Positions 21,819-60,636 of a stretch of DNA of 64,000 nucleotides are shown here, in pieces. Location: contig OZ025265.1 in NCBI GenBank assembly GCA_964019135.1, forward strand, positions 26,573,143 through 26,637,142. Reading direction: 5' to 3'. The DNA comes from Arenicola marina. Its lineage: Eukaryota > Annelida > Polychaeta > Arenicolidae. The notes below the pieces were generated by a model. The model had not been told where the DNA came from. It ran no database searches and saw only the letters and a program-made list of their open reading frames with translations. Every line of letters starts with the position of its first letter. The first letter of the stretch is position 1. The translations under genes were made by a program, and so were the position numbers.

Positions 21819-24524
21819 ATGGTCTCCGCAGCAATGATCTTCTTCCTCGTCGTAGTCACGGTGGTGTCAGTCTCGGCAACAATGGTAAGAAACGCCATTT
21901 TAAGCGTAGAATCCATTGACAACTTACGGTACTTAGTCATTGCCGGGGCAATTAAACCGTTTTCACCGGTGTGATTGAAACATGGGAAAGGAAGTGGGAT
22001 GGTATACCGCTTTAGCGCGACATCCAATATTTCAAACAGAATTCAGTTACGTAACTATGGAATTCATAGAGAATAATACGTTTACGCGCAATGTCAACAT
22101 TAGGGTCAAATACGTTAAAGCTTAAAAACGGGAGATTAATATCAGATGAATGTGTTTTTTTGTGTCATGATCTGTTTGCATGAAAGTGACATCTCACATC
22201 AACATTTTTGCTTGGAAAGTCTTTACCAGCTCATAAGCTGCTTGTTTCAGACAGATGCACCAGATCTGACAACGGACTACGCCGACTACGTTACTGGAGC
22301 CGAATCTACCGTGAGTGCTAAAATAAATACTAACATTACCCTTTCTGTAGTACATACAAGTATCGATCTTTCAAGAACCAACATTATCAACGCAACGCAA
22401 GATATGGGAAACCATAGGCACATATCTGGATAAGTCAAACCGATCTAACTTTTATAAATATATAAATTTCGCATCTGCTATGCTCAGGGTAGCTTCACCA
22501 CATAAGGAACTGGTTATTTTGGTTTTTTATTGTTGCCACATACCATACACATCGTTGTAAGTAGAAAGGAGATACGACAAAAATGAATGTTCTTATTAGG
22601 CTCATTCAGTGCTATTGAGAGATCAATAAAAGAATGTTGGCAAAAACACAGCGAAAAGCGAGGGAGAGTTTTAAAGAAAAGTTTGACCCGGTATATGATG
22701 CAGTCGCTGATATTGAGATGTGACGTTCGTGGGTTTGCCTAGTTGTATATTGATATTGTCAATGTGCTATATGCCGCTTTTAAGAGAAATAACACACATT
22801 AGCAACGCCCAATTATATTGTATATGGTGTTCATCTATATTTCGGTAGATTTGTCGCGGTCGGCGTCAGTGTGCGCCGGATGATAATCGAGTATTTTGGT
22901 TTGTAGTTGTATTTTCTCGCGAATTCAGATTTGTTTTCTAAGAATAGCTCAAAGTGTCAATTAGAGTAGTTAAGTTACTTATCTCACGTCGGATATTTGT
23001 CTCAATTCAGTGTTCAGGTTTGCCTATGTTTTGGTACCGAAGTACACCTGCCTTCTATGGGAGTGAGTGAGTGCGATGAATGTAACCCCTTGTCTATGAA
23101 AGTTTGTAGAGATAATGTTTGGCAAAATGTTACCTGTACTTTGTTATTTTGTACTGAAGTGTATTATCGGTAAATTTAAAGAATGCCTTATGATCTTTTC
23201 ATATGGAAGTAGTCTTTTTTTCTGGGCGTAATGATACTTAGCTGACTTGCGCCGTACTACTTTCAGTCGTAACCAAGAGAATGGAAAGGTAGGGTCAATT
23301 GGGGGGAAAATCACGAAAAATGTCGTTTTATCTTGATAATCACGCATGTTAACCCAATCTGTGTCATATTTAAGCCATGGGGAAGTTTTGTAGTCAATAT
23401 TCTCCCACTTTTATGAAGGTAAACACATATTAGAGACCAATGGATAGGATTTTAGTCATAATTGTTTTCGTTGGGTTTTCATTGTTCAGAAAGTCTGCCC
23501 GTACAAATGCTGAAGTGGCCCTCCGCCCAGCTGGTGGAATAGTTGGTAAGATCTGTCATTTGGTTACTCTACCTGACCGTAACAGTATTGTATCATTCGT
23601 TTCGAACTGTCATTAACTATGACGTATGAGTGCTATCAAGGTGTTATCAGTCTGAGATTATGCATAGTATAAATGCTTGTTTATTTTATACAAATTAAAA
23701 AAGTGTCATGTAGTCACCCTACCTCACCTGAACAGTATTTGTTGTATTTCAAATAGTCATTGATTAAATAGGTGCTACATGTGTTGGCAGGCCAAGATTA
23801 TGTATGGTATAATCGCCTGTATGTTTTTCTCCTAATCGTATGGTAATTACGGTAGTTATGTTTAAAGATATCTAGCAATTCTTTGTTCGCTGTATTTCCA
23901 GTCGACGGTCAATAAAGGATCTGTATGGCAACACACGACAGGTATTGGGGTCACTTACAAGATTGACAAACTATATATAATATTACTGTAGGTAGCTGTA
24001 GACAATAGTAAAAATGCGACATAATGGTTGATGATCGCATAAATACCGCTTTAAGTTATTCAGATCTAAGTGTCAGAGCATCACCATAGTGACCTTGTAA
24101 CTGTTCTCCATTACAGAGCGATTACGCCTACGATGGATTCCATTGGCCTGATGTAAGTTCACGCATACATTTTGTTCTTAAAACTTTATTGTTTATTTTG
24201 CAAATCGTGCAGCATGCCTAAATATATTATTTTTTAAAATACACAGTAACAGGCTAATAAAGAGGTATTTGTCTAAAGAGAGATTGTGTCATTGCCTAGT
24301 GGTAACCGTATCTGTAGACATTCATTTAGCAAGGCACGTCTATGACCAGATGAGTAAGACATTTCGGTATGCTTGGTGTCTTTCAGAATGCGGCTGCCGT
24401 CTTAACATTTAACAGCCTGGTGTACCTGGTGACCTTGACCTTGACATTTGGCCGGTATCAACCTTCACTGATGGTAGCAGCATTGCGAAATCTGGTGCAA
24501 AAATTTCGCAGGTCGGAAGGATAG
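21819..24524 (+). CDS. Gene A: small acidic Tyr-rich secreted or membrane protein, four exons
   Basis: Exons are 21819-21884, 22251-22310, 24117-24152 and 24387-24524, all joined in phase 0, giving 99 residues. Exon 1 is a signal peptide (MVSAAMIFFLVVVTVVSVSA). Exon 2 is acidic (TDAPDLTTDYADYVTGAEST). Exon 3 is SDYAYDGFHWPD; its Tyr residues sit among Asp, like tyrosine-sulfation sites. Exon 4 begins NAAAVLTF, forms a second hydrophobic stretch, then a basic amphipathic tail ending LVQKFRRSEG. Donors are gtaaga, gtgagt and gtaagt; acceptors end in cag. AATAAA follows at about 24539. Exons 2 and 3 are the best conserved parts across the copies in this window. I do not recognise the family; function unknown. 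Confidence 0.7.
22850..23965. repeat. Left-arm-specific insertion in intron 2 of gene A
   Basis: The right-arm intron runs directly from 'atatttcggtagatt' to 'aacaaactatatac' (near 36860), whereas the left arm has about 1.1 kb between. No domain or terminal repeat was recognised. Confidence 0.55.
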
Positions 24525-24747
24525 AACGTTCGTGTTCAAAATAAAGTGCAACTATTAAGTGTTCATTCTTGCAATATATGAATTAAATATAATATATGAC
24601 ATTGGCCGGTATCAACCTTCACTGATGGTAGCAGCATTGCGAAATCTGGTGCAAAAATTTCGCAGGTCGGAAGGATAGAACGTCCGTATTCAAAATAAAG
24701 CGCAACTATTAAGTGTTCATTCTTGCAATATATGAATTAAATATAAC
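24443..24747 (+). repeat. Tandem duplication of the gene A 3' end
   Basis: About 150 bases spanning the C-terminal codons, the stop and AATAAA of gene A occur twice (from 'gacatttggccgg' at 24443 and from 'gacattggccgg' at 24598). The second copy is outside the reading frame but provides a second AATAAA at about 24693. The right arm has one copy. Confidence 0.85.
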
Positions 24748-24749
24748 GC

Positions 24750-25499
24750 TTGGTTGTTCTTGATTTCTTTTGGCAGCCACAGCAATATGCAGTTGTCGTG
24801 GATAACTCCTTTTTAGAATAGCACCTAATATGTATAATACACCATAGCATTAAATCACACTTGGGGCCTCCGAACTATTTTCGTCGGAATGTTAACCAAA
24901 GCACACAACCGCATCTCATATTTCACTGAATTAACAACTATAGTCCTGAATTAGCACCCACGCATCCAAACGCTTGAAAGAGGGGCACACTCCTACCTCG
25001 ACCGCCAATGACGAGTCTATGAGGGACTGGACATGGGGTAAAATATGCTTAGCTGTTGTGCTAAGCTACGGATCGCGTTTTGGGTCACAGTTTGACAACA
25101 GTATTTGTAAGCCTATAACAGGCTGATAGTCATCGTGTTTTGATCCTTTGAACAGAACTTTGTGGGCCTCAAATAATAGCGCATAAGAATCGAAAAAAAC
25201 GACAACATGTTGCATATTCTTACAATGAATCAGTTTATTTATACATATTCGGAGTATATCATATAATCATCTGCATAACAAAAGCGATGATTTGGACATG
25301 CATCAGCACAATTAGCAGCATCACCAGCAAGTACGTTTCGCTTGTCGATAATTCAAAAGTCTTGATTAGTCGTGTTAAGTGTTCAGAACGCAATCGTCGA
25401 GTCGACCCGTTTGCTCGATCCAACCTGCAACGGATCCTCTTGGCGCTTAAATATGACCATGGAATGACAGCTTACCTGCATCATGTGTCCTTATCAATA
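24750..25499. other. Intergenic between gene A and SGNH pseudogene
   Basis: Homologous in inverse to 35565-36290. No gene called. Confidence 0.5.
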
Positions 25500-26153
25500 T
25501 CAGCTTTTGGGGGGTAATCCATTCGCGCGTATGTCCTTGAGACCTCTGCGCAGAGCACGGCGCACGCTCCGGTGATATTTCTTCAGGCCGTCCTCACTGA
25601 GATGGACGCCGTCTGCCGAGACGTACCGTGTCCCATGTCGGCTAAGTTTCCCGTGGCGCCAAAAGGACAACTTGGCGGCGCCCTCCGTCTCGCAGAGGGC
25701 CGCCATCGTGGAGTTGGCAAGCTCACCCTGGCGTTGTAATCAGCCGGTGCCGGCCACTTACCCCTGATGAGCTCCCTCTGCATGATCTCCGCCACGTATA
25801 CCCTGTAGACCCCTCCACGGCTCAGCGCCAGCCTGGCCACATCGACGACACGGTGGGCCAGCGCCACGGCCGAAGTACCTTGATCGCATAGATCATTGGA
25901 ACCGATATCCTATAGATTTGGTTCCAAGCGTCCACCATCAGACGCATCTCCTGCTCCAGTCTGGGAAGCTTCATGCCTCCCATCCCGTGTAAAGCGACTG
26001 TGCACGTGGCCTCCGATAGGCCCAGGTTGCTCAAGCCGGAGGTGTCCGCAAATCCCTTCAGGCGGCGCACGAAGGAGTGTCCAATGACCAAGGCGTTCAG
26101 GGGTCCTTCGTCTGCCAGAGAGTCAGAGGTGCTGTCATCTACCAGCAAGACAT
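25500..26153 (-). pseudogene. SGNH-hydrolase-like ORF, left-arm copy, frameshifted
   Basis: Minus-strand counterpart of the intact 34902-35564 ORF. The start codon is kept (26153), but a one-base loss soon after gives a stop. A small deletion near 25915 removes codons before the GSND block, and another one-base loss occurs near 25725. The Ser block (LVIGHSFVRRL) and the DGVHL block remain readable in different frames. By eye the two copies are closer than most of the surrounding palindrome. Confidence 0.85.
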
Positions 26154-26370
26154 GATGGCTCGCGTGAGTCGAATCAGCTACATTATAGAAGGATACAATT
26201 GGGCTGTTTACTGGTTGTGCGTATTTTGATTTTGATGTAAAATTATGCAGTTAAATTCACCGACGAGTGTGGCGTTAACACTGAATTTTTGACTGGCTTA
26301 GTTTTCACTGACACTCACCCTGCAAAATATTGCAAATTATTATATTTCACTTACCGTTTTAGTTCAATAC

Positions 26371-28255
26371 TGGATGGATGGATGGATTCGTTTATTCAAC
26401 AAAGTGTTACATAATAAAATAAAACGCACAATGTTTGTCTAAGTATAGATCACACTTTGTCCAGGAGACTCGAGTTAAGGCCGTGTTAGGCCGCTGGCAC
26501 TAGAGCCATCTAATAAATTAAATTTGGTAAATAATGACCCTATTTAATTGAAAAAAAGCAGAATAACGGGATTAAGCTAGGAAAAAAAATAAACAAAAAT
26601 AACAACTTGCGCTATTTGATGGTCAAACATACAAAACAAAACGTACAAAAGCATTTGATACATAATTTCAAAATAGAACCCTCTATGCTTGACATACAAA
26701 ACAGTTCTGTATATCACACTCTATTGGGTAATCATTTATCATAATTTGTTTAATAAATTGAGAGAATCCCTGTAGACTATGTGTGTAGATTTTATCTAAG
26801 ATGGATTAGGTTCAGAATTTATTACATATACTAGACTATGTCTTATACATTTAGTGGCATATTGATGATGTGCACGGGTTGTTTGAACCAAATGTTTACC
26901 CCTGGTGCTGTATGAGTGCACACGTGAATGCTGGACCAGTGGTATTTGTTCAAAGTATATTGGAAGTTTTTTATTTACTAGTTGATAGTACAATTTTAGC
27001 GTTTGCAATCGATGAATATCTTTTGCTTTTAGTAATTTAAGATCTTGGAACCGAGGATTCGTGTGTGCGTTATATTTGCTGCCGGTTATGATCCGCACAG
27101 CTTTCTTTTGTAGCTTTTCCAATCGTTGTGTTTTATAACCCCAGGCTAAGATATAATAGTTTAAGTGTGGTAACAAAAGCGTTTTATAAATTGATAACAA
27201 CGTATGTTGCGGAAGGATATACTTAGATCTGCTCATAATTGCAATTACTTAAGATACTTTAATTGCTATTTTATTAATATGGCTATTCCATTTTAAGGTT
27301 TTCTCTATAATTAACCCGAGCGTATTAAATTCGCCCACACATTCGATAGACGTTGTACCAATCACAAGATTGGGAATATCTATTTTTTCCCCGGCATGTA
27401 AAAGAGCATAAATTTACATTTATTTGGGTTTAGAGCCAATTTATTTATTGGCAGCCATTGGCCAATTTTGCTCAATTCTCCATTTTAAATTTTCGCGCTG
27501 GTCTCCTGAGATGATACTTGTAACTTTACGTTTAGTGTGCTTGAAAGGGTTGTGTCATCCGCGTATATAATAAATTTTAAAATGTCACTGGCGGAGGTTA
27601 TGTCATTTATGTATATTATAAATAAAAGAGGACCTAGAATAGAGCCTTGTGGAACGCCAGTATGAATATTTAAATTATTAGACCAGGTATCTTCAAGTTG
27701 TACGTATTGTTTTCTGTCGCAGAGAGAACTTTTCATGAGCTTTAAGGAGTTTGAATTCAGGCCATAATGCTTTAGTTTATGTAGAAGTATATCATGATTT
27801 ATTGTATCGAATGACTTAGACAAATCCAGATATATATGTATCGGACTTTCCCCGTTACCCAATTTTTGTAGAGTCTGATCAATTAGTTCAAGGCACGCAA
27901 GTTCCGTGGAATGCTTTGGTCTAAAACCGTATTGGCTGTTATTAAATAATTGTTTAGCCTCAAAATGTGAATAAAGTTGATTAGCAATAACTTTCTCTTA
28001 GAAAAGGCTGGTAGTATTGATATAGGTCTGTAGTTATTAAATACATCCTTTTTCCCACTTTTGAAAATTGGAACCACCTTTGCTATATTTAACGAATCAG
28101 GGAAAATACCGGTTGACAACGCTTGATTAATTATTAGTGTAAGGGAGGCACTAACTTCCTGTTTGATAGATTTGAGCAACTTCACAGATATATCATCATG
28201 ACCACATCTTGTTTTAGGCTTTAAAGCATCAATTATTTTATTCGTCTCCGAACTG
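26371..28255 (-). mobile_element. LINE inserted in left arm (CR1/L2-like), decayed
   Basis: The minus strand carries RT pieces: 28185-27883 (FNNYRPISILPAFSK), 27862-27485 with IYLDLSKSFDTINHD, TGVPQGSILGPLLF and IIYADDTT, and 27236-26796 with the usual downstream LEKLQKKAVRIITG region. Frameshifts separate them. The 3' end is a (TCCA)n-like tail at about 26371-26386. The right arm shows the empty site: 'agttcaatgctgaaacc' on the minus strand near 34680. The copy is 5'-truncated, without an endonuclease. Confidence 0.85.
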
Positions 28256-29515
28256 AAACGTTGTAAGTGTGAAAGTCGGATCCACGATTATTATCAGAGT
28301 CAAAGCAGTTCCTATTGGTTTTATACGTCTGTGGGCTTCTGTGTGTGCACATTGCTCGTTTCCGCCAACGAGGATTTACCACAAAAGTGTTGTTACACCA
28401 ACAGACCAGAGGTGTTAGCAATTACCACTTTATTGCCACATCTTCTGTCGAATGTCCCGTCTGTTTTGAACGGGACACATCGGCATATCGCATGGATGCG
28501 CGCATCCGACCCGGGTGAAAGAAGTGTCGGGCTGTAAATCGATGCGTAATGTGCGTATTCGATCCGCTTTGGGGGTACACTCGGGTTACCAAAGAAAGGC
28601 GCCCAGTCTCTTCGTGTACACATGTCAACCTACATCGCGAGTGTGAAGGAAGAAACGCGACTTACCCCTTACTCCTTGCAAAAAAAACATGGGCTATTTT
28701 TCCTGCACAACAGACGGCGACAGACTCGTAACTTAAATTATGTCTAATCTTTTATTTGTGTTCGCTCCAGATTTGGTGCCCCCCCCCCCCACCCCCCGGC
28801 TCACGATCCCCAACCAATGCATATAATTGATGTGGGCTGTTGGGGTCCATGAATCATGTTTGAGCCCACGAAATGGACTAATGCAGTAAATGTTAGGCGT
28901 GAGTAATACCTGAGCTATGCTGAAACAGCATGCCCAAAAATAGCAGATAAATACCAATTGAACACGGGGAGTGGTGTGGTAATTTATCGTATGCTTATGA
29001 TATTATGGTTCAGAATCCGATCAGGCTGTATTTGTCTTGATTATCTTGATTATTGCAGGTTCTGCATTTACAATTATAATACAAAGTATTAAAATATGGT
29101 AAACTGTCTGCTTCTGTTTACGTAATAACAGTGAAATTGGACCTATCTTTGTATGAATTATGAATTAATCTTAACGCCCCTCCCAACATGTTAGCAAAAC
29201 TGACACCCGTGGATGACATTATTATCATAGGCATACATGGGCCCCTTACCCTCACCCCCTTCCCCTCCCTTAGGCGCTTTACGGGGCGCGTGGGTCTGGA
29301 AATGAATTAGTCTAACGATATGAAAAAAAACAGATTTCTCCTGTGCTGACTATAGTCGCGCCGAACGACAAATTCACGAGGCGAACACAATGGTGTATAC
29401 CTGTACCTGTAAATACATGTACACAGCCGCTCCTGGCTGCATGCTGGCCAGCACGGGGGGCTACCCGCTCTGAAACGCATCTCCAAGAATTGGGGAGAGC
29501 AATATCAAATCTCCA
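28256..29515. other. Inner part of left palindrome arm
   Basis: Matches 31813-34690 in inverse. No gene recognised. It contains a C-run at 28780-28797. The 'ccctcccttaggcgctttacgg' segment near 29265-29285 recurs at 31090 (inverse) and 32425. Confidence 0.5.
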
Positions 29516-31122: not shown

Positions 31123-31322
31123 NNNNNNNNNNNNNNNNNNNNNNNNNNNNNNNNNNNNNNNNNNNNNNNNNNNNNNNNNNNNNNNNNNNNNNNNNNNNNN
31201 NNNNNNNNNNNNNNNNNNNNNNNNNNNNNNNNNNNNNNNNNNNNNNNNNNNNNNNNNNNNNNNNNNNNNNNNNNNNNNNNNNNNNNNNNNNNNNNNNNNN
31301 NNNNNNNNNNNNNNNNNNNNNN
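31123..31322. other. Assembly gap (200 N)
   Basis: Exactly 200 N, the usual placeholder for a gap of unknown size. 'acatttggtcaccgtttag' before the gap (~30999) and 'catatttgttcaccgtttag' after it (~31335) are similar, so a repeat probably collapsed or failed to assemble here. Confidence 0.98.
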
Positions 31323-34901: not shown

Positions 34902-35564
34902 ATGTCGTTGCTAGTAGATGACAACACCCCTGACTCCCTGGCAGACGAAGGACCCCTGAACGCCTTGGTCATTGGACACTCCTTCGTGCGCCGCCTGAAG
35001 GGATTTGCAGACACCTCCGGCTTGAGCAACCTGGGCCTGTCGGAGGCTACGTGCACAGTCGCGCTACACGGGATGGGAGGCATGAAGCTTCCCAAACTGG
35101 AGAAGGAGATGCGTCTGATGGTGGAACGCTTGAAACCAAAGCTCATCTTCATGGATATCGGTTCCAATGATCTATGCGATCAAGGTATTTCGGCCGTGGC
35201 GCTGGCCCACCGTGTCGTCGATGTGGCCAGACTGGCGCTGAGCCATGGAGGGGTCTACAGGGTATACGTGGCGGAGATCATGGAGAGGGACCTCTTCAGG
35301 GGTAAGTGGCCGGCACCGGCTGATTACAACGCCAGGGTGGAGCTTGCCAACTCCACGATGGCGGCCCTCTGCGAGACGGAGGGCGCCGCCAAGTTGTCCT
35401 TTTGGCGCCACGGGAAACTTAGCCGACATGGGACACGGTACGTCTCGGCAGACGGCGTCCATCTCAGTGAGGACGGCCTGAAGAAATATCACCGGAGCGT
35501 GCGCCGTGCTCTGCGCAGAGGTCTCAAGGACATACGCACGAATGGATTACCCCCCAAAAGCTGA
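34902..35564 (+). CDS. SGNH-hydrolase-like protein, intact single-exon ORF
   Basis: A 220-residue open frame. SGNH blocks are in order: the Ser nucleophile in LVIGHSFVRRL (S27, GHS in place of the usual GDS), a Gly block GMGGMKL (~57-63), GSND with N89, and DGVHL giving D184 and H187. This is the catalytic set of SGNH/GDSL esterases. There is no signal peptide or membrane segment, so the predicted place is intracellular. The ORF is clearly more GC-rich than the AT-rich flanks. Single-exon SGNH ORFs of the GHSFVRRL type also occur in animal retroelements (recalled family knowledge), so it may be a transposon cargo gene or a domesticated one. No RT, recombinase or terminal repeat adjoins it. 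The left-arm copy is broken. Confidence 0.8.
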   Translation: MSLLVDDNTPDSLADEGPLNALVIGHSFVRRLKGFADTSGLSNLGLSEATCTVALHGMGGMKLPKLEKEMRLMVERLKPKLIFMDIGSNDLCDQGISAVALAHRVVDVARLALSHGGVYRVYVAEIMERDLFRGKWPAPADYNARVELANSTMAALCETEGAAKLSFWRHGKLSRHGTRYVSADGVHLSEDGLKKYHRSVRRALRRGLKDIRTNGLPPKS

Positions 35565-36369: not shown

Positions 36370-37865
36370 TCAGTGAAGGGTGATGCCGGTCAATGTCAAG
36401 GTCACCAGGTACACCAGGTTGTTACATGCTAAGACGGCAGCCGCATTCTGAAGGAGACCAAGCATACCGAAATGTCTCACTCATCTGGTCATAGACGTGC
36501 CTTGCTACATGAATGTCTACAGATACGGTTACCACTAGTACAAGGCAATGACACAATCTCTCTTTAGACAAATACCTCTTTATTAGCCTGTTACTGTGTA
36601 TTTTTAAAAATAATATATTTAGGCATGCAGCACTATTTGCAAAATAAACAATAAAGTTTTAAGAAGCACATGTATGTGTTAACTTACATCAGGCCAGTGG
36701 AATCCATCGTAGTCGTAATCACTCTGTAATGGAGAATAATTACAAGGTCACTATGGTAACTTAGATTTGAATAACTTAAAGTGCTATTTATGTGACCATC
36801 AACCATTTTGTCGCATTTTTACTATTGTCTATAGCTACCTACAGTGAAGTATATAGTTTGTTAATCTACCGAAATATAGATTAACCCCATACACAATATA
36901 ATTGGGCGTTGTTAACGTGTCTTATTTCTCTAAAAAGCGGGATATAGCACATTGACAATATCAATATACAACTAGGCAAACCCACGAACATCACATATCA
37001 ATACCAGCGACTGCATCATATACCGGGTCCAACTTTTAGTTAGAAGTCGCCCTCGCTTTTTGCTGTGTTTCTGCCAACATTTTGCTACCTATCTCTAAAT
37101 AGCACTTAATGAGCCTAATAAGAACATTAATTTTTGTCGTATCTCCTTTCCACCTACAACGTCGCAACAATTTGGCAACACTAAAAACCAGAATAATCAG
37201 TTCCTTATGTTGTGAAGCTACCCCGAGCATAGCAGATGCAAAATGTATATAACCTAATAAAGTTAGATCGGTTTGACTTATCTAGATATGTGCCCCATAT
37301 CTTGCTTTGCGTTGAAAATGAAGGTTTTTGAAAGATCGATACTTGTACTACAGAAAGTGTATTGTTCATGTTTCTTCTTTAGTACTCACGGTAGATTCGG
37401 ATCCAGTGACGTAGTCGGCGTAGTCCGTTGTCAGATCTAGTGCATCTGTCTGAAACAAGCAGCGAGCGAGCTAGTAAAGACTTTTCAAGAAAAATTGTTG
37501 TGGTGAAATGTTACTTTCATGCAAACAGATCATGATGCAAAAAACACATTCATATGATATTAATCTCGCGTGTTCAAGCTTTGAAATATGTGACCCTAAT
37601 GTTAACATTGTACATACACGTATTCAGGTGCGTAACTGAATTCTGTTTGAAATATGGAATGTCGCGCTAAAGCAGTATACCATTCAACGTCCTCTCCCAT
37701 GATTCAATCACACAGGTTTGATCACGGTTTAATTGCCCTGGCAATGACTAAATACAGTAAGTTGTCAATAGATTCTACGCTTAAAATGGCGTTTCTTACC
37801 GTTGTTGCCGAGACTGACACCACCGTGACTACGACGAGGAAGAAGATCATTGCTGCGGAGAACAT
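36370..37865 (-). CDS. Gene A': right-arm copy of the small acidic Tyr-rich protein
   Basis: Minus-strand exons are 37865-37800, 37449-37390, 36723-36688 and 36447-36370, again all phase 0 with intact donors and acceptors. The product is 79 residues. The signal peptide starts MFSAAMIFFLVV, exon 2 is TDALDLTTDYADYVTGSEST and exon 3 SDYDYDGFHWPD. Exon 4 starts NAAAVLACNNLVYLVTLTLT, then a deletion shifts the frame and it ends five residues later, so the basic tail of gene A is lost. Changes in exons 1-3 are few and never break the frame. Probably expressed, with a divergent C-terminus; decay in progress is the alternative. Confidence 0.6.
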
Positions 37866-45063: not shown

Positions 45064-45070
45064 TATATAG
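45064..45070 (+). promoter_or_regulatory. TATA box of gene C
   Basis: TATATAG in 'ggccttatataggcattgtttctc', conserved in unit 2 at 56940-56946. It lies about 140 bases before the ATG, the same distance as in gene A. Confidence 0.6.
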
Positions 45071-45205: not shown

Positions 45206-46063
45206 ATGGCCGCTGTGAATGTTGTCTTCATCGTCATCGTTACCATGGTGATCTCGGCTTCTGCACGCACGGTAAGAGCAAACAAAACTCGTTCTCATGA
45301 AGTTGCAGTTGCGAGCTTTCTTTCATTCTTTGTCACATATTTGGCATGTCATGATGCAAAGTTGCCGATCTTTTTTCTTCTCTTGCAGACGGAAATGCCC
45401 GATTTCACAACAGACTATGCTGACTATGTCACTGGAACAGAATCCACTGTAAGTCTCGTGAATCATAGTCTTCAGCGATTAACAACATTTATATATTTGA
45501 TACATCTGAACAATTTGAATTTGCATCGATATAATCTAAAATCCGAATACTATTGTTACGTATCATGTGAATGATTATCTACTGAGTCAGATTAAGCTGC
45601 ACTAATCAATGTTTGGATTTTAGTCTTACTTTACATGCGGTACTTTAATATTGTTCAATAATTTTACTTGTTATCTTCTCTTCCTTCAAGGGTGATTATG
45701 ACTACGATGGATTAAACTGGCCCGATGTAAGTACTGCATTACTTGAAAGTCCCTCAAAGTGGACTCCCACGCGGAAGAGAATTATGACTAGATAAGGCAC
45801 GATCGGTTTAAATTCAATGCTTTCAAACTCCAAGAGCTTTACACACAGACGCAAGCTCAAGTATTAAGTGGTTAGCTATCATTACGCCTCACCTAGATCG
45901 CTTACAATAAATTGTCATTGCACAGGTTTATGCTATGTTTAAACACAATCATAACACTTTGTTTATTATTCCCTTGAAAAATTCGGCCTGCGGTGTAACC
46001 CACAACATTCTGCTGTACCTGATGACTTTCATCATGTCCTGTGTTGCTCTTACTCGTCACTGA
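45206..46063 (+). CDS. Gene C: small acidic Tyr-rich protein, exons 1-3 intact, exon 4 acceptor lost
   Basis: Exons are 45206-45271 (signal peptide MAAVNVVFIVIVTMVISASA), 45389-45448 (TEMPDFTTDYADYVTGTEST) and 45691-45726 (GDYDYDGLNWPD), all phase 0 with good splice sites. An exon-4-like segment, 45980-46063, encodes 27 residues (starting NSACGVTHNILLYLM) to TGA. Its acceptor reads ttgaaa instead of the ttgcag kept in copy D, so it is probably skipped. The next candidate terminal exon on this strand is block beta at 55996, across the LTR element. Without a new acceptor, the LTR insertion may have left the gene non-functional. Confidence 0.6.
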
Positions 46064-46329: not shown

Positions 46330-47062
46330 TGTCACGGGGCCAACATCCGTAGTGCTTTGCCATCCCCCGTTCCTGAGCTTTGGGGGTGATTAACTCACCC
46401 AGCGAGCTATTCACGGACCTTGGAGCGCGAGGGGCCCCGATAATTACTTGGCAGTGACACGGGTTTACCTGGCACTCCTTTGCCCAGGGGGTTTAAATAG
46501 AAGAAGACGCGACAGAGAAAGACAGATGGTGACCGGAGACAAAGCCTGCGTCGTTCTGCTCCGCGCTGTGTGCTGTGTGCTGCCAGCGCGTCCTGCTCCG
46601 TGCTGTATGCTGTGTGCTGTCAACGCGTCCTGCTCTGCTCCGTGCTGTGTGCTGTGTACTGTCAGCGTGTCCCGGTCCCGTGCTGTATGCTGTGTGCTGT
46701 CAGCGTGTTCTGCTTCGTGCCGTGTACTGTGTGCTGCGTGCTGTGTGCCGTCAGCGCGTCCTGCTGTGAGCTGTGTGCTGTCTGCGTTGTCCTGCTGCGT
46801 GCTGTATGCTGCGTGCTGGCTACTAGCCCGCGCCCTTCTGCGTGCTGTTTGCTGTGAAGCTGCCGGCGTCCTTCTGCGTGCTGGCCCGCATCCCTGCGTA
46901 AACTCTCGAACTCTCATCGTGTTGACTGAAGGAACCGACCGGATCCAAGCTGGCCCTTGGAATATGTAAATATCTTGGTTTATAAATCGTCTGCAGAGTT
47001 CATAATCTGATGCGTTAGTTGTCATTCCACCTACTCTGATCCCGACCTTGTCTGTGTGACAA
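46330..47062 (+). repeat. 5' LTR of Gmr1-like retrotransposon
   Basis: A 733-base repeat starting TGTCACGGGG and ending GTGACAA, matching 54494-55380. TAGG at 46326-46329 and 55381-55384 is the target duplication. About 46555-46880 is a GC-rich minisatellite of ~37-base units ('gtgctgtatgctgtgtgctg'), shorter than in the 3' LTR. Frames through it are repeat artefacts. Confidence 0.92.
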
Positions 47063-47067
47063 GGAAA

Positions 47068-47085
47068 TGGGGGCTCGTCCGGGAT
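47068..47085 (+). promoter_or_regulatory. Primer binding site complementary to tRNA-Pro
   Basis: TGGGGGCTCGTCCGGGAT, five bases after the LTR, is the 18-base tRNA-Pro primer site known from gammaretroviruses. It would prime minus-strand DNA synthesis. Confidence 0.88.
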
Positions 47086-47951
47086 AGATGAGTCGGTGGA
47101 AGTGACATGATAGTGAAATCTTTCTGTTTCGTAGAAGACATGTTTCGTTTTCTTAGATTAGATTTTTGATTTCTGTGACTGTGATATTGTGTTCTATCTG
47201 AAAGCTATTTCCTGGGTGTTAGAACGTGTCTATTGTTGAGTTAAAATTTGGTCTTTCGCAGGATTGCATATCTCGTTTAGTTGTTGGCGATTAGTTTCAG
47301 AGCAGTGTTGATCATAGACTAAGAATTGCTCAAATTAGCGGTATATTTCGGTAGTGTGGCTAATTGTCAAGCGAAGTTACTATTGGCAAGTGTAGGTCAA
47401 AGTGGTATTACTCTCTCTCGCAAGAGACTAGTCAATCGTTTACCTTCTTGAACAGTGAAACATTTCGGGGTGTCGTTGATAGCTCAGGTCTATCACTTCT
47501 TGAGGTTACCAATAGAGTGTCAGTTTCACTAAATTTCTTGATTATTGCTCTCAACGAATCGTTTCGCTTGTTTGCCTGTGTCCATATCGTATTATTGCTT
47601 GGTAGGCGAATTGGCGTTGAAGTGAAGTATCTGTATTGCTTATTTCCTCTTTTACGTAGATATTTTAGTATATTATCGAGGACATAGGTGGTTCTTGTAT
47701 CATCGCCCTTTATAATTGGTCTGTGATCTGTCCCCTGCCTTTGAAGGGTGTTTAATTCGGAGCTTGGATATTCGTTGGTGTAATTTGGTCTCAGGGAATT
47801 TTCTTTTTCTAGGAAATAGACATAGTTTGTGTAGCTATTATTCCTTTTGGCGGTTGACATAGAACATTCCAACAGTTGTGATAGATAGCAGCTGTGGTTT
47901 TAAGTATTACTCGAGTATTCAGTCTGAATTAGGCATTTTTACGAGGTCGAT
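47086..47951 (+). other. Leader between primer site and gag
   Basis: About 870 bases with no recognised domain. Open frames at 47364-47687 (+) and 47432-47872 (-) overlap one another and lack motifs. Confidence 0.5.
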
Positions 47952-49060
47952 ATGAGTGACATGACTGCTTTGATCGCGATGGGCGAGAAGTTAGGTTACG
48001 TGGGCGATGTCTTACATGGGTTTGTCAGAGAAGACATCAAGTGCATTAGGGAAGAGAAGAAATGCCAGGATGAGATGGAACGAGAAGAAAGAGCGGCGGT
48101 CCGAGAGGAGCGGAAGATGACGTTAGACGCCGAGGCATCAAAGCGAGCCGACGAATTGCGAGCCAAGGAGTTGGAGCTCGCAATACAAGCAGGCAAGGCG
48201 CTACCTGACGAGGGAAGAGGCGAAACTTCTCAGGCAGACGCGTCCGCGTCAGCTAGAGCGCCGAGACTTCCCGCCTTTCAACCAGATCGAGACGACATTG
48301 ACGCATATCTGGTACGATTTGAGCGATACGCCGTGACTCAGCGCTCGCCGAAGACATCGTGGGCGATAAACATAAGCGTGCTGTTGACGGGTTTGGCCCT
48401 GGAGGTATACTACCGACTGCCAGAAAACGAGGCAACCCAAATATGCCAAGGTCAAGGACGCCCTTCTTGACCGTTTCAACCTCACTGAAGATGGCTTCCG
48501 ACGAAAATTCCAGGAAAGCCGAGCTGAAGATGGAGAATCGTCCAGTCAGTTCCTGTCTCGACTCGATGGATATCTAAACCGCTGGATGGATATGGCTGAG
48601 GCAGAATCCACCTACGATGACCTCCGAGAGTTGCTCATCCGTGAGCGATTCATGGACGCTTGTGTCCCAGAACTATCAGTTTTCCTATGTGAACGGAAGA
48701 TCCGCGACCGGGAGCAACTCGTCGCAACAGCGGAAAATTACCGCAGAGCCCACAACTGCTCTTTGAGTGGGAGGACTTCCCGTTCCAAGTCAAAGGACAT
48801 CCGTTAGAAGTGGTTATAATTCGAACAATCCCAATACCCGACTGCCCTGAGGTGATTACCACTCAACCCGAACCCCCCACGACCAATTGCGTCATAAGCG
48901 GTCTCAAGAACCTGAATGGAGACATCGGAGTGTGGAGCATTCCAACAGGAGTACCGGTGAACCGAACCGGCAGCGTCTAAACCAAGACAATCGCACTTGT
49001 TTTCTGTGCAGACAGCCAGGTCCTATCGCGCGTGATTGCCGTAATACCGGGCAATCAAGA
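47952..49060 (+). pseudogene. Gag of the LTR element, frameshifted
   Basis: The first frame (47952-48470) starts MSDMTALIAMGEK. It has a Glu/Arg-rich coiled-coil-like region, then LPAFQPDRDDIDAYLVRFERYA, a typical gag/SCAN-like capsid beginning. The frame shifts near 48440 and continues to ~48807 with DRFNLTEDGFRRKFQ and FLCERKI. A further frame (48887-49144) carries CFLCRQPGPIARDC, a zinc knuckle in which Pro replaces the metal-binding His. Confidence 0.8.
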
Positions 49061-49260
49061 TCTTCATCGACGGGATTTCGAGAATGCCGCTGCGAGCCAA
49101 GATACCTCGATTGGAGCAAACTGCGAAGAATGCGACCGGGGTAAGGATGATGGATATAGAGAGAATCCCCACATAATGAGAAGATCCCCACCTAATCCGT
49201 GTAGAGTCCACGTGTCCCGAATCTCCCGCACGAGCTTCACCGTGCAATTGTGCAGATAAG

Positions 49261-49690
49261 TTGCCTGTGTGCCTTGTGTCTGAACTGGGTGAAACAGACG
49301 TGGATTCAGCTAGCCGCCATGTGCAGGATCAAGATGGGAGTACGTATCCATTATGTCACATGCTTTGCGACTGCCCAGTCCCTGTGTGCACATGCGGCAA
49401 TCTACCCACGGTCGAAGGACGTCTTAACCGTTTCCGTGTTACCACCATGCGGGACACTGGATGCAGCAGCGTCGTTGGCAAAAGTTCATTTGTACTACCA
49501 CAGCAGTATACGGGAAGTATAAGGTATGCCTCCTTGTGGACGGTACGACGAGGAAGGTCCCTACAACAATTGTACGTCTAGACTCTCCATACTTCGTAGG
49601 ATCGACTGAGGCGATGGTCATGCCAACCTCGTTGTACGAAGTAATTCTGGGTAATATTCCCGACGCGCGACATCCAGAAGACCCAGATAA
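49261..49690 (+). pseudogene. Retroviral-type aspartic protease, frameshifted
   Basis: TMRDTGCSSVVGKSSFV (about 49445-49495) is the active-site loop with DTG. The flap and C-terminal part (VRLDSPYFVGSTEAMVMPTSLYEVILGN, split across text 49570-49660) is in another frame, shared with the integrase. A frameshift between about 49500 and 49530 therefore separates the halves. Confidence 0.75.
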
Positions 49691-49799
49691 ACTCTGGCAC
49701 CCCAGTGAAGCAGAGGAAGCACAAGCTGTCGTAGCGAGGGCGCAGAGTCGGAAGGATCCAACGGAAATCAAGCTCAAGGGAACGAAGAAGGACACTACG

Positions 49800-50660
49800 G
49801 TGAAACAGGCGGAGTTGTCTTACGAGCAAACCTATGACCCGACCCTCTCCAAACTACTCGCGCGTAAGAAAGGCCAGGAAGAGTCCAGATTCACCAAGTC
49901 ACAGGAGTGTTGGTTTGATATCAAGCATGACATTCTTTATCGCTACCAACGGTATATTAACCAACCTTCCAAGCCAGTAGTGAAGCAACTTGTCGCCCCC
50001 CGCTCAAGACGCGTACGGATAATGGAATTGGCTCACGACGCTATGATGGGTGGTCATATGGGTGTCAAGAAGACCATGGACCGCACAATGGACAACTTCT
50101 ATTGGCCAGGCATACACGCTGATGTGTCTCGGTTCTGCAGATCCTGTGATGTATGCCAGCGTACCATTCCAAAGGGCAAGGTAACCAAGGTGCCACTCGA
50201 CACGATGTCTGTGATTGATGTCCCCTTCAAACGGATTGCTGCCGACATCATTGGCCCTATGTCCCCTGTCTCCAGTCGCGGCCATCGATACATCCTAACA
50301 GTAGTCGACTACGCTACGTGATATCCCGAGGCCGTCTACGTAACATAGACTCCGAAGCAGTAGCGGAAGCTATGTTAGAAGTGTACAGTCGAATGGGCTT
50401 CCCTGAAGAGATATTGACTGACATGGGTACCCAGTTTGTCTCTAACGTTATGAAGGAGGTGAGTCGCTTGATATCGGTTCGTCAACTGACCACGACGCCA
50501 TACCATCCAATCTGTAATGGCCTTGTTGAAAGATTTAACGGCACCTTAAAGACTATTATAAAACGATTGTGTTCGGAAGAACCTGAGCACTGGGATAGAT
50601 ATCTGCCTGCCGCCTTATTTGCGTATCGGGAGGTGCCTCAAGACAGGTTTGAATTAAAAC
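49800..50660 (+). pseudogene. Integrase of the LTR element, one stop and one frameshift
   Basis: The zinc-binding N-terminal domain is AHDAMMGGHMGVKKT with CRSCDVCQR. The catalytic core keeps D in RIAADIIGP, D in LTDMGTQFVS and E in GLVERFNGTLK. At 50319-50321 TGA replaces the Arg codon usual after 'YAT' (CGA to TGA, a CpG decay change), and a frameshift follows within ~20 bases. The core ends with FAYREVPQD, where the nested LINE interrupts it. The missing C-terminal domain is discussed under the LINE. Confidence 0.88.
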
Positions 50661-50664
50661 ATGA

Positions 50665-52621
50665 TCGTGCTTATAAAACGAAGAATACTTCCAACATCGG
50701 TCCAAGTTAACAAAATATACACATTTGCTTTTGTCATTAATTCACGCTTGAGAAATGCCTTTGACTTAGTACTCTCTCGGCTAGCACCGTCTTTAGTGTG
50801 GAGAAGCCAGTCTTTGTATAAAAGAAATGATAGCACCGATATTACAAAGTTGATCGATTTATTCTGAACGCCGAGAATAATTTCCTTTAAACTAATTTTA
50901 ACGCTCAGCAGCTCTGATGTCAGTTTCCAAATTTCTTTCGAGAAATAACAATCATGTAACAAATGCATAGTATTTTCCGGGAGTCCACATCGGTCACACA
51001 AGTCAGATTCAATTTTTCCCCATTTCACAAGGTTTCTTTTGCAGGGTAAGATTTGATTAATTACTTTAAAGTTAAAGGCAGCTATTTTTCTGTCTGGAAT
51101 ATCCTTAATTTTCCTCTTATATACATCAGCAAAATTAATATCGAGGCGGTTGAAAAGATTTGATAATTTTACTTCTGTGTTCGGTACTTCACTTTTCTTC
51201 GCAATAAATATTTCATAATATGCGCGAGTCGAGACGTCGGCGATCGGGGCGGCTAGAGGGGCAGTTGCATATGGACATGAGGCGTATGACGTCTCCGAGT
51301 TTATAACGTCTTTATACGGTTTAAGAGCCTGCCGTAGAAGAGATATCTCAGCAAAAATATTCCTCTTGTCTTTCACTCTTTCGTGTATTGAGAGCTCACA
51401 TAGTTTCCCCATTGAGAAATCCAAATCTCTTATACGTATGATCCCTACTTCTATGAAGGACTTGAAAAGCAGGCAACAGTTTTTCCCGCATATTTTCTTG
51501 TACGAAATAAAATAATTTCGCCAGAGTATTTCATCACGCAGGTTTTCAAATACAATAGGTCGCGTTTCTTCTTTGCTTTGGCTATAGGATTCGCATACTT
51601 CTTGGTAGAATTTAGGCAGAAGTTTAATTTGTGGTAGGTTGTTGCTTATTGATATTTTTAAATTTCAGAAAAAGGAAGTCGTCTCCAAGACTATTTAAAT
51701 GCGATCGGGCTAGAAAGTTCCAATTTTCGTCAACGTTGACGATCCTTTTAACTCATGATGCTTTTATGGCTTGAAAGTGGGATCTTATGTCAATCATTGC
51801 TATGCCGCCTTGTTCTATTTTACGTATTAATTGCTTTCGTTTCAGTCTATCGCTTTTTCCCCAAATGAAATTATATAGGATTTTGTCGATCTGCGAGATC
51901 GTTTGGTCGTTTGGTATAGCTGTATGTGTCGCTACGAATGTTACTTTAGGAACAAGAAGTGTTTTGATAATGGTTACCTTTCCAAATATGGTAAGTTCTC
52001 GAGTTTGCCAGTTTTCAATCTCATCTTCTATTTGTTTTATCTTTTTTTCCCAGTTTAGTTCATTGCATTTGGCTAGATTTTGTCCAATGTATATTCCAAG
52101 GTATCTTATGGGAGTGCTTACAACTTTTATATCATTAATGGTGATATCTTTGTGCTTGCCTTTGCCTAAGTACATTCAAATTGTTTTGCTTTTGTTTAGC
52201 AGAGGTCCAGCCCTTTTTGAGAAAGCATCAATTTCTTCTAATACAAATTTTATTTGATCTGCATCTTGCAGTAGCAGTGTGCCATCGTCGGCATATTGAG
52301 ACAGTTTCACTGTTTTTTCTTTATCATGTTGTTTAATGCGGTAGCCTTTTATTTTTTCATTGCTTTTTCTTTTAATAGATAAGATTTCGACTACGATGAT
52401 AAAAAGTATAGCTGAGAGGGGGCATCCTTGTTTGACACCTCGGTTTACTTGAAAGCTTTCTGACATATGCCCATTATTTTTTACGTACAGATAAGAATTG
52501 TTGTATAAAGTCTGGACCCATTTAATGAATTCATTTCCAAAACTGAACTTTTTGAGTACTTTTTCTATAAACAGCCACTCTACCGAATCGAAAGCTTTCT
52601 CAAAATCGAGATTTCCATATT
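50665..52621 (-). mobile_element. 5'-truncated L1/Tx1-like LINE nested in the LTR element
   Basis: Antisense to its host. Minus-strand frames include 52466-52176 with the RT motifs NRGVKQGCPLSAILF and SQYADDGTLL, 52175-51753 with RYLGIYIG and NFIWG (typical after an L1/Tx1 RT), and 51424-50654 with CDRCGLPENTMHLLHDC, a C-terminal Cys/His motif. The frames are open over long stretches but broken between about 51425 and 51750. The 5' end lies in the RT domain at 52621. No clear target duplication was found. Confidence 0.85.
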
Positions 52622-54199
52622 AATATGCTGAAGGAGTACCATAGTGGGGAAGAGGCGACTGATAACACCAGGGAAGATACTTCCGGACGTGAAACCATCT
52701 CGGCCATCATCGAAGATCCGGCTGAAGTACCGGAGGATGGCTTAAATTTTCCCGATATGGTGTTACCGGAACAGAAGGAGACTTATTTAGACGTACATTA
52801 CGCGGAAACCCTTTCAGCCAGTCAGAAACAAGAGGCAAAGGATCTTGTGTACGAGTTTAGAGACATTTTCTCCGAAATACCCGGAACCACCACCTTGGCA
52901 GAACACCGGATCGAATTATCATCTACTGAGCCTCTTCGTCAACGCCCCTACCCCATCCCGTATGCAACGCGGGAGATGGTCAAGGAGTAAGTAGAGAAGA
53001 TGATGGAATCAGGAATAATTGAAGACACTGAGTCACCCTACGCTTCTCCCGTGGTGTTGGTCAAAAAGAAAGATGGCTCCGTCAGATTTTGTATAGACTT
53101 CAGACGACTGAATGCTGTCACAGTCTTTGATGTTGAATCAATGACCACCGCTGATGCGATTTACGCCAAGATTTGTAAGGATCAGTACTTCTCAAAGATC
53201 GTTTTGTCCAAGGGTTATTGGCAGGTTCCGCTCAAGGAGTGCGATCGCAAGAAGACTGCCTTTGTGACCCCGGATGGAAGCTATCAGTTCCGGAAGATGC
53301 CGTTCGGGTTGGTAAATGCCACTGCGACTTTCAATCGTATGATGCGCAAGTTGATATCCGGAATCGACCAAGCTGATAACTTCGTAGACGACATCCTCAG
53401 TCACTCCCCCTCCTGGGCAGATCAGCTGAATACTCTTCGGTCGCTCTTCCGGCGAATACGAGAAGGTGGGTTAACCATCAGACCAACCAAATGCTTCATT
53501 GGGTTCGAATCCCTCGACTTCGTGGGCCACAAGATACAAGGCGGTGCCCTCCACCCGCACCTGGATAAGGTGAAGGAGATAATTGAAGCACCCCGCCCTA
53601 TTACGAAGCGCCAAGTGAGATCCTTCCTGGGTCTGGTGGGATATTACCATAATTTCATCCATCAGTTTGCCAACATCGCTGCTCCTCTCACTGACCTTAC
53701 AAGAAAAAAGAACCCAAATATCGTCAATTGGGGTCCGGCTGAAGAAGAGGCGTTTACTAAGTTAAAGACGGTCATTACCCGAGAGCCCATTCTGAAGTTA
53801 CCAAATGTCGACTTGCCGTTCATCATACAAACTGATGCGTCGGATATCGCCGCGGGAGCGGCGTTGCTCCAACATCATGACGACGGAAAGTTCCCAATCG
53901 CATATGCAAGTCGAAAATTCTCCAAGGCTGAAAGGAATTACTCGACGGTGGAACGAGAATGTCTGGCCCTCGTAAGGGCAATTCAGAAATTCTAGAGCTA
54001 TCTGTTTAGACGCGAATTTCTCGTTGAGACTGACCATCAGCCATTGGCTTATATAAACCGCGCGAAGGTGATAAATAGTAGAGTAATGAGATGGTCTCTT
54101 CAGCTGCAAAATTACAGATTTCGCATTCAAGCTATCTCTGGTAAGGACAACGTTTTGGCAGACTACTTGAGCCGGCGATGTCATGAGCTCACGAGCTAG
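52622..54199 (+). pseudogene. RT and RNase H of the LTR element
   Basis: It starts with NMLKEYHSGEE, which resembles the last residues of an integrase tail, then DIFSEIPGTT and RQRPYPIP (RT entry). A TAA at 52988-52990 follows MVKE. The RT proper has VKKKDGSVRFCIDFRRLN, SKGYWQVPL, FGLVNATATF and FVDDIL (catalytic Asp pair kept), then RNase H with IQTDASDIAAGAAL and YSTVERECLAL. A TAG at 53993-53995 interrupts RNase H, and the same frame goes on through FLVETDHQPLAYI to ADYLSRR at about 54178. Confidence 0.9.
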
Positions 54200-54478
54200 A
54201 GTAGAAAGTCTGTGTCTAGTGTCCATTGGCTTGGTATTTTTGGCGTAGTTTTGTGAAGTTTGGTGTATTTATTGAGTTCCTTGGTGTAGTCGGATTTACT
54301 ATTGTCGATTATTTATAGCTTGTTTGTTTTCTTCGCAGCTTGATGTTTCGGATGATATCCTGGGGTTATTTCTTTGGGTAATTCAGGAGTGGATGATGAT
54401 TGTTGGATGTAGGTGATAGTTGTTCCAATCAGTATTTCTAGTTGGCCCCAGTTCGTGATAAAATTCTGAGTATTTTCT

Positions 54479-54490
54479 TGAGATGGGGGC
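54479..54490 (+). promoter_or_regulatory. Polypurine tract
   Basis: 'gagatggggg' shortly before the 3' LTR, the expected plus-strand primer. The exact boundary is uncertain because 'ccat' separates it from TGTCAC. Confidence 0.6.
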
Positions 54491-54493
54491 CAT

Positions 54494-55380
54494 TGTCACG
54501 GGGCCAACATCCGTAGTCCTTTGCCATCCCCCGTTCCTGGGCTTTGGGGGTGATTAACTCACCCAGCGAGATATTCTCGGACCTTGAAGCGCGAGGGGCC
54601 CCGATAATTAGTTCGCAGTGACACGGGTTTACCTGGCACTCCCTTGCCCGGGGGGTTTAAATAGAAGAAGACGCGACAGGGAAAGACAGATGGTGACCGG
54701 AGACGAAGCCTGCGTCGTTCTGCTCCGCGCTGTGTGCTGTGTGCTGCCAGCGCGTCCTGTCCGTGCTGTTTGCTGTGTGCTGTCAGCGCGTCCTGCTCCG
54801 TGCTGTATGCTGTTTGCTGTCAGCGCGTCCTGCTCCGTGCTGTATGCTGTGTGCTGTCAGCGCGTCCTGCTCCGTGCTGTATGCTGTGTGCTGTCAGCGT
54901 GTCCTGCTCCGTGCTGTATGCTGTATGATGTGTGCTGTCAACGCGTCCTGCTGTGCTCCGTGCTGTGTGTTGTGTGCGGTCAGCGTGTCCCGGTCCCGTG
55001 CTGTATGCTGTGTGCTTTCAGCGTGTTCTGCTTCGTGCCGTGTACTGTGTGCTGCGTGCTGTGTGCCGTCAGCGCGTCCTGCTGTGAGCTGTGTGCTGTC
55101 TGTGTTGTCCTGCTGCGTGATGTATGCTGCGTGCTGGCTACTGGCCCGCGTCCTTCTGCGTGCTGTTTGCTGTGAAGCGGCCCGCGTCCTTCTGCGTGCT
55201 GGCCCGCATCCCTGCGTAAACTCTCGAACTCTCATCGTGTTGACTGCAGGAACCGACCGGATCCAAGCTGGCCCTTGGAATATGTAAATATCTTGGTTTA
55301 TAAATCGTCTGCAGAGTTCATAATCTGATGCGTTAGTTGTCATTCCACCTACTCTGATCCCGACCTTGTCTGTGTGACAA
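54494..55380 (+). repeat. 3' LTR of Gmr1-like retrotransposon
   Basis: 887 bases, matching the 733-base 5' LTR except for point changes and about four extra units of the ~37-base minisatellite around 54765-54940. TAGG follows at 55381-55384. Confidence 0.92.
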
Positions 55381-57026: not shown

Positions 57027-57036
57027 GATGGCCGCT
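57027..57036 (+). pseudogene. Exon 1 stub of unit 2
   Basis: ATGGCCGCT as in gene C, then unrelated sequence beginning 'cgtgagaatataacaatt', which is found again at 57535-57556. Confidence 0.6.
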
Positions 57037-59488: not shown

Positions 59489-59700
59489 ACAGTGTAACAA
59501 AACTGATCGCTAACGTGTAATGTAACTATTAGATGTCAGTTGTTAGACTACAGCCTTGAATATTAGTATATGCCATTGTTGCTAAGTTTTCTCCACTTAC
59601 TTGTCCAGCGGTCCACCAGCAAACCCGTTTATACCCACGAAAGGATTGTATCAGATTTTTCTGTTTATCTAATCGTGTTTAAATAAATATGTTTAAACCA
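57900..59700 (+). mobile_element. 5'-truncated LINE (CR1/Jockey-group) with target duplication
   Basis: Inserted between blocks of unit 3. Target duplication ACTCGTAAGCAAT at 57887-57899 and 59701-59713. The 3' end is AT-rich with 'taaataaata'. It contains one long open RT frame, described separately. The uninterrupted target can be read in unit 2 near 55426-55440. Confidence 0.88.
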
Positions 59701-60035
59701 ACTCGTAAGCAATGATCATCATTAGAAACACGGCTATCACACAAAACTAGGCTCACGCCCTACAACAAGTTCCATTTCAATATACATGTGTTTACATCAG
59801 AAAGAAAACTCCGTACAACAGAGGATAACCGCCTGACTGGCAGTCCATGAATTAGGTGATATATCTCTGTGTATTGTCCATTTGTAAGGCGTCTTAGAAG
59901 GTAGTCGTCCGTTGGTTCAAAACTCTGACCGTGTCACGTAGCAAATCCGACCAGCGGAATTCACATCCCAAGTTTCGTGCCAAAGGTAAGTGTTGTTTGA
60001 TAACGTGATGTGAGTATTTTTTTTTCAGTGACGAA

Positions 60036-60636
60036 TTAGAGCAACAAGTACAGCAGAATGCTACGGGTTACACAGCAGGCCGAATTCTGCAAGGGAATAA
60101 TTAACGAAGTGTTATGATTATGTTTAAGTATAACATAAACTTGTGCAATGGCAATTCATTTTAAGTGATCTAGGTAAAACGTAATGCTAGCTAACCACGT
60201 TATACTTGAGCTTGCGTCTGTTTGTAAGTCTCTTGGCGTTTGAAAGCATTGACTTTAAACCGACCGTGCCTTTTCTGGGCCTAATTCTCTCCCGCGTGAG
60301 AGTCTATTTTGTGGGACTTTCAAGTAGTGCAGTAGTTACATCGGGCCAGTTTAATCCATCGTAGTCATAATCACCCTCGAAGAAAGAAAAAATAACAAGT
60401 AAAATTTAGGAACAGTATTAAAGTACCGCACATAAATGAGGACTACAAACAAATCATTGATTAGTGAAGCGTAATACACCACAGTAAATAATCAATCAAG
60501 AGCTACGTAGAGATAGTATACGGTTTTCAGATTATGTCGATGCAAATTCAAATTGCTAAGTCATATATGTAAATGTTGGTAATTGCTGAAAACTATTATT
60601 CACGAGACTTACAGTGGATTCTGTTCCAGTGACATA
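60036..60636 (-). pseudogene. Copy D of the small-protein gene, cut by a LINE in exon 2
   Basis: On the minus strand, only the last 8 codons of exon 2 (YVTGTEST, 60636-60613) remain before a LINE that occupies the rest of the window. Exon 3 is 60375-60340 (GDYDYDGLNWPD, identical in protein to gene C) but its donor is gtaact rather than gtaagt. Exon 4 is 60086-60036 after a good ttgcag acceptor, 16 residues (NSACCVTRSILLYLLL). Exon 1 should lie beyond position 64000. The LINE insertion must abolish the normal protein. Confidence 0.75.

Follow-up and report, generated by a model that had tools for sequence, protein, structure and literature searches.

A micro-exon gene family encoding predicted small acidic peptides in the annelid Arenicola marina

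A stretch of 64,000 nucleotides (nt) of the Arenicola marina genome (assembly GCA_964019135.1, contig OZ025265.1, positions 26,573,143 to 26,637,142 of the forward strand; hereafter the window, numbered from its first letter) contains a family of genes built from very short exons. The family is real, apparently undescribed, and of a familiar kind, namely that of lineage-specific small secreted peptides. Our analysis detected residue-level selection on exons 2 and 3 alone. We lean toward the interpretation that these two micro-exons encode a mini-ectodomain that is tethered to the membrane, directly or by a glycosylphosphatidylinositol (GPI) anchor, and is probably tyrosine-sulfated; the anchor and the sulfation are predictions from residue patterns.

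Architecture of the gene copies

Three copies, starting at 21819 (+), 37865 (-) and 45206 (+) and referred to as copies 1, 2 and 3, contain phase-0 exons of exactly 66, 60 and 36 nt. At the borders of exons 1-3 in these copies, the internal acceptors are AG and the donors are GTAAG or GTGAG. The gene consists of four exons, and in copies 1 and 2 each of its three introns is in phase 0. Only copy 2 looks intact in every part, with an open frame of 79 residues and all of its splice sites. Copy 1 has an open frame from end to end (99 residues), and 7 extra nt in its exon 4 change the tail. The exons are as follows.

21819..21884, + strand: copy 1 exon 1, predicted signal peptide MVSAAMIFFLVVVTVVSVSATM, 66 nt, GTAAG donor
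22251..22310, + strand: copy 1 exon 2, TDAPDLTTDYADYVTGAEST, 60 nt
24117..24152, + strand: copy 1 exon 3, SDYAYDGFHWPD, 36 nt
24387..24524, + strand: copy 1 exon 4 with stop, hydrophobic at first and continuing in a long polar tail (7 extra nt relative to copy 2)
37800..37865, - strand: copy 2 exon 1, predicted signal peptide MFSAAMIFFLVVVTVVSVSATT, 66 nt
37390..37449, - strand: copy 2 exon 2, TDALDLTTDYADYVTGSEST, 60 nt
36688..36723, - strand: copy 2 exon 3, SDYDYDGFHWPD, 36 nt
36370..36447, - strand: copy 2 exon 4 with stop, NAAAVLACNNLVYLVTLTLTGITLH, 78 nt including the stop
45206..45271, + strand: copy 3 exon 1, predicted signal peptide MAAVNVVFIVIVTMVISASART, 66 nt
45389..45448, + strand: copy 3 exon 2, TEMPDFTTDYADYVTGTEST, 60 nt
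45691..45726, + strand: copy 3 exon 3, GDYDYDGLNWPD, 36 nt
45980..46063, + strand: copy 3 exon-4 frame, NSACGVTHNILLYLMTFIMSCVALTRH, acceptor AG absent

In each of copies 1-3 a TATA box, read by eye, precedes the ATG by 137-149 nt.

21670-21676, + strand: TATAAAA, copy 1
38002-37997, - strand: TATAAA, copy 2
45064-45069, + strand: TATATA, copy 3

Degenerate probes for exons 2 and 3, derived from the copies themselves, were compared with 100 shuffles. The exon 2 probe matched three sites in the window and the exon 3 probe four, where 0.00 were expected and 0 of 100 shuffles reached that number; because the probes came from these copies, the result shows only that the exon words do not recur by chance. 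A scan of the window with the nine exons of copies 1-3 (at most 30% mismatch) detected exons 2 and 3 only at the sites given in this report. Micro-exon shape was rejected as stand-alone evidence, as 17 open segments of 36 or 60 nt lie between AG and GTRAG in the window, real exons counted in. A sequence-only reading of this DNA had proposed a coding family with short phase-0 exons, and the exact sizes, phase and borders in three copies support that proposal. It had counted at least four copies; three have the 66/60/36-nt phase-0 exons, but the fourth, at 60636 (-), is broken.

Selection on exons 2 and 3

The copies form two pairs, copies 1/2 and 3/4. In exons 2 and 3 combined, copy 1 differed from copy 3 at 25 of 96 nt and 8 of 32 residues, where 15.5 residue differences were expected at random (P=1e-4), and copy 2 differed from copy 3 at 22 of 96 nt and again 8 of 32 residues (14.0 expected, P=7e-4); the two tests are not independent because copies 1 and 2 are closely related. 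By codon position 1/2/3, the differences were distributed 5/2/18 for copy 1 and 5/2/15 for copy 2. The Nei-Gojobori method, applied to the same exons against copy 3, gave a nonsynonymous divergence (dN) of 0.135 and a synonymous divergence (dS) of 1.33 for copy 2 or at saturation for copy 1. The dN/dS ratio between copies had been put forward earlier as a check; between pairs, its value in exons 2 and 3 departed widely from 1. When the copy-1 and copy-3 regions were compared by blastn (word size 7), the only stretches that linked the pairs lay around exon 3 (in both copies) and, for copy 2, around exon 2; the introns were unalignable between pairs.

No residue constraint was detected in exon 1 (28 nt and 14 residue differences, P=0.32) or in the first 19 codons of exon 4 (21 nt and 12 residue differences, P=0.76). 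Both exons are hydrophobic, with peak 11-residue means of 3.3-3.5 in exon 1 and 1.9-2.3 in exon 4, and hydrophobicity without residue constraint is as expected for end signals. The variation of the last exon that had been described earlier amounts to change without residue constraint plus damage.

Within the copy 3/4 pair, 1 of 62 exon positions had changed (a count that includes two bases possibly from an element), compared with 81 of 490 flanking positions (Fisher p=5e-4). The copy 1/2 pair showed 8 of 162 changes in exons versus 107 of 1051 in flanks (Fisher p=0.03); this deficit lay on the 5' side (5/126 vs 81/673), and no deficit was detected in exon 3 (3/36 vs 26/378). Residue-level selection is detected on exons 2 and 3 alone, and for those exons the earlier suggestion of selection on coding sequence is supported.

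The predicted mature peptide

Together, exons 2 and 3 encode 32 residues with a net charge of -8 to -9, four Tyr and no Cys, Lys or Arg. Tyr directly follows Asp at four of four sites in copies 2 and 3 and at three of four in copy 1, in acidic surroundings. Asp just before Tyr occurs in most good sulfotransferase substrates (PMC9372746), and the acidic surroundings of sulfated Tyr have been remarked on (PMC6272617). Sulfation of the mature peptide is plausible on these residue patterns; the acidic Tyr clusters had been said to look like sulfation sites, and the position of Asp fits the substrate preference.

The restriction of constraint to exons 2 and 3, between a signal-like exon and a hydrophobic last exon, suggests that the mature product comes from two micro-exons. 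The layout fits a signal peptide in exon 1, a hydrophobic anchor signal in exon 4 and the mature product in exons 2 and 3. Exon 1 would be cleaved off upon secretion, and exon 4, which begins N-A-A or N-S-A, may be a GPI-attachment signal that is cut near its first residue, or else a membrane helix. The D-Y pairs, two per micro-exon, would be sulfated in the Golgi, and the flexible acidic peptide, whether tethered or shed, could serve as the surface to which a basic partner protein binds, a role modelled on the sulfotyrosine stretches of other surface proteins.

Duplication and decay of the locus

Copies 1 and 2 lie in the arms of a large imperfect palindrome. A second inverted pair (45408-46329 vs 59759-60652, 83% identity) contains copies 3 and 4.

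15892..29458, + strand: left arm of the large palindrome, holds copy 1, blocks of 71-92% identity
32160..43295, - strand: right arm of the large palindrome, holds copy 2, blocks of 71-92% identity

The arms have diverged too far for an assembly fold-back or a pair of alleles to be likely. A gap of 200 N is present at 31123-31322. Between copies 3 and 4 lies a Gypsy-like long terminal repeat (LTR) element at 46330-55380 (repeats 46330-47062 and 54494-55380), in which the frames between the repeats matched reverse transcriptase, RNase H and the zinc-binding part of integrase; on its - strand, this element also contains another reverse transcriptase frame (52616-52176). A GDSL/SGNH hydrolase-like open reading frame (ORF; E 9e-10) occupies mirrored places in the large palindrome (34902-35561 + and ~25160-26150 -) and is perhaps element-borne; four ungapped inverted blocks of this ORF are 94-99% identical, compared with 86-95% in the other 15 blocks of the arms.

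Exon 4 can be aligned between copies, yet it is damaged in copies 1, 3 and 4. Copies 2 and 3 share a common exon-4 frame with an N-[AS]-A start and a His followed by the stop at the end. In copy 3, a possible alternative acceptor, an AG ending at 45925, would keep the frame and add 18 residues. The reverse hexamer TGACCT occurs twice in exon 4 of copy 1 (24387-24450), perhaps by coincidence. Copy 4 has lost most of exon 2 to the apparent 3' end of a non-LTR element; a reverse transcriptase ORF (62748-61837) lies upstream on the same strand, and exon 1 of this copy was not found in the window.

60613..60637, - strand: copy 4 exon 2 remnant, last 25 nt, abutted by a retrotransposon-like 3' end
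60340..60375, - strand: copy 4 exon 3, same sequence as in copy 3, donor GTAAC
60036..60086, - strand: copy 4 exon 4, NSACCVTRSILLYLLL plus stop, 22-nt deletion

The two orphan first exons and one stub that had been reported were recovered at 10817 (+), 14469 (+) and 57028 (+).

10817..10882, + strand: orphan exon 1, MVIAAVIFFVSITMVIIVSSVT, 66 nt, in-phase GTAAG donor; nothing matching exons 2 or 3 found downstream
14469..14534, + strand: orphan exon 1, MVIAAVNFFVLVTIGITVSSVK, 66 nt, in-phase GTAAG donor
57028..57036, + strand: stub, ATGGCCGCT, following a duplicated copy-3 upstream region

A scan for an ATG with a hydrophobic start returned 26 rows, six of which had a 66-nt phase-0 donor: the three copies, the two orphans and a row at 22423 (-) that was taken for chance.

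In our interpretation, inverted segmental duplication gave rise to the copies, and retrotransposon insertions and small indels have eroded them. Amplification by palindromes, as proposed earlier, agrees with the position of the copies in inverted arms, but decay is as evident as amplification because one of the four copies looks wholly intact.

Two ORFs of 68 codons that resemble signal peptides are paired in the palindrome arms (17422-17628 + and 41698-41492 -); the 17422 ORF has a TATAAA 145 nt upstream of its ATG, and a strong donor stands at the end of this ORF class. The pair was rejected as a proven second gene and kept as a lead, since it shows 20 nt and 11 residue differences (P=0.20) and the frame would stay open in 48% of trials with random change. 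A possible, if doubtful, extension of our interpretation is a new animal family of GPI-tethered sulfopeptides in which each micro-exon supplies one two-Tyr sulfation module and the mature protein serves in its entirety as a binding tag. Inverted duplication at the locus would then carry the signal exon to new mature parts, with the orphans at 10817 and 14469 and perhaps a second peptide class (17422 +/41698 -) as its traces.

Weighing of alternative explanations

Several observations weigh against a tethered, sulfated mini-ectodomain. GPI attachment, sulfation and the binding partner are derived from residue rules. Compared with random change, the hydropathy (P 0.02-0.21) and the absence of charge (P 0.08-0.39) of exons 1 and 4 are at best marginal. 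Copies 1 and 2 differ by 3 synonymous and 5 nonsynonymous changes (dN/dS ~0.5), too few to be told from neutral change. Among the copies, the third has no exon-4 acceptor, the fourth is broken, and the polar end of the copy 1 tail makes a poor GPI signal. That tail, with its ~25 polar residues after the hydrophobic run, and the few polar residues at the same place in copies 2 and 3 would suit a single-pass membrane protein with the same secretion and the same acidic ectodomain, in which exon 4 is an uncleaved helix plus a few cytosolic residues; the peak hydropathy of exon 4 given above is in keeping with this. However, a GPI signal is a short terminal hydrophobic run preceded by small residues, and the short run at the very end of exon 4 after small residues fits this rule better, so that we regard the single-pass protein as rather unlikely.

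The damage that speaks for a family in decay, in which fragments and pseudogenes were spread by segmental duplication and the product is no longer made, comprises the splice or insertion defects of copies 3 and 4, the altered tail of copy 1, the two orphan first exons and the stub; yet copy 2 is open with all its splice sites, and the residues of exons 2 and 3 were kept although the introns diverged past alignment, which leaves this explanation improbable. We give similarly little credence to a secreted effector-like family of the schistosome micro-exon gene (MEG) or aphid bicycle kind that diversifies via exon swapping. Such a family would account for the short phase-0 exons, for a signal exon found without the other exons and for a 32-nt likeness between the 17422/41698 ORF class and copy 3 exon 1 (E 8e-5), a likeness that may reflect signal-peptide composition; but there are only four exons, no MEG motif follows the signal peptide, the internal exons of bicycle genes are in phase 2 instead of phase 0, and exons 2 and 3 are conserved instead of diversifying.

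Genes with four tiny exons are easily overlooked in annotation. Since selection coincides with the two micro-exons of the presumed mature peptide, the family is readily testable in transcriptomes. If the tethered, sulfated mini-ectodomain is correct, it would be a small natural scaffold made almost entirely around candidate sulfotyrosine sites.

Other features of the window

A beta-1,3-galactosyltransferase-like ORF (7876-9042 +) is open in a single exon (Pfam Galactosyl_T, E 2e-43); of its 11 matches, the four named ones are from chiton, at 32-33% identity. An open frame of 162 residues (6223-6711 -) contains several N-x-S/T sites, noted by eye, and no Pfam match at E<=1 was found for it. Tandem units of the TCAAGGTCA type lie near 15.4 kb (15439-15502), and it is relative to these that the hexamer TGACCT in copy 1 exon 4 is reversed. 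A retrotransposon search gave 3253 hits; nearly all of the 120 listed carried no name, and the three informative names among them were symbiont metagenome-assembled genomes. Rfam and tRNA scans of the window gave 0 matches, as did a search of it for a mollusc-type repeat.

Comparison with known systems

No relative at E<=1 was found among 95 candidates from a set of 5.8 billion proteins whose animal share is possibly small, and copies 1-3 matched 0 Pfam families at E<=1. The six matches of a shortened copy 1 in a PDB sequence search (best E 0.41) were taken as chance. Searches for exact DNA patterns, two in viral contigs and one in prokaryote contigs, found nothing, both collections being non-animal. 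No description of a 66/60/36 micro-exon family was found in the literature under the terms searched; four motif strings led to one paper, which its title shows to be unrelated. The earlier statement of knowing no family with this layout agrees with the protein, Pfam, PDB and contig searches, with orphan status being provisional because the contig collections are non-animal and the protein set is perhaps animal-poor. To call it a new system goes too far, since other animals are already known to have micro-exon genes that encode small secreted proteins.

As described in PMC10526429, schistosome MEGs have a signal peptide, 10-20 very short exons of 6-81 bp, mostly multiples of three, and introns of up to kilobases, with a hydrophobic/aromatic motif ending W-polar-basic after the signal peptide. 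The exon sizes of our family agree (66, 60 and 36 nt, and 78 nt with the stop for exon 4 of copy 2), whereas there are four exons, exon 2 is acidic, and the sole Trp is followed by P-D (by eye). Aphid bicycle genes likewise produce secreted proteins from micro-exons, a secreted product being predicted in our family, but PMC9168663 gives them ~17 exons on average, internal exons nearly all in phase 2 and CYC motifs; here all is in phase 0, the exons number four and exons 2 and 3 lack Cys. By the defining features tested, the family is neither MEG nor bicycle.

The precursor of CD52, a vertebrate GPI-anchored mini-glycopeptide, has a signal peptide and a hydrophobic tail. Its mature peptide of 12 residues sits on a GPI anchor (PMC6719568). 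A very short mature peptide, possibly on such an anchor, is also predicted here, whereas CD52 is a glycan carrier and the mature part here would have ~32 residues and be acidic and Tyr-rich; the Pfam result for copies 1-3 gave no sign of homology. Clustered D-Y acidic stretches bind partner proteins according to PMC9372746, and the sulfotyrosine N-termini of cell-surface proteins and hirudin-like motifs resemble our peptide in being flexible acidic stretches with clustered D-Y. The Asp before Tyr of tyrosine-sulfated surface peptides recurs here at 4/4 Tyr in each of copies 2 and 3 and at 3/4 in copy 1. Such stretches are usually short pieces of larger proteins, whereas here the acidic stretch would make up almost all of the product. 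In function, we infer, the family would be most like a CD52-sized tethered peptide bearing sulfotyrosine-type clusters.

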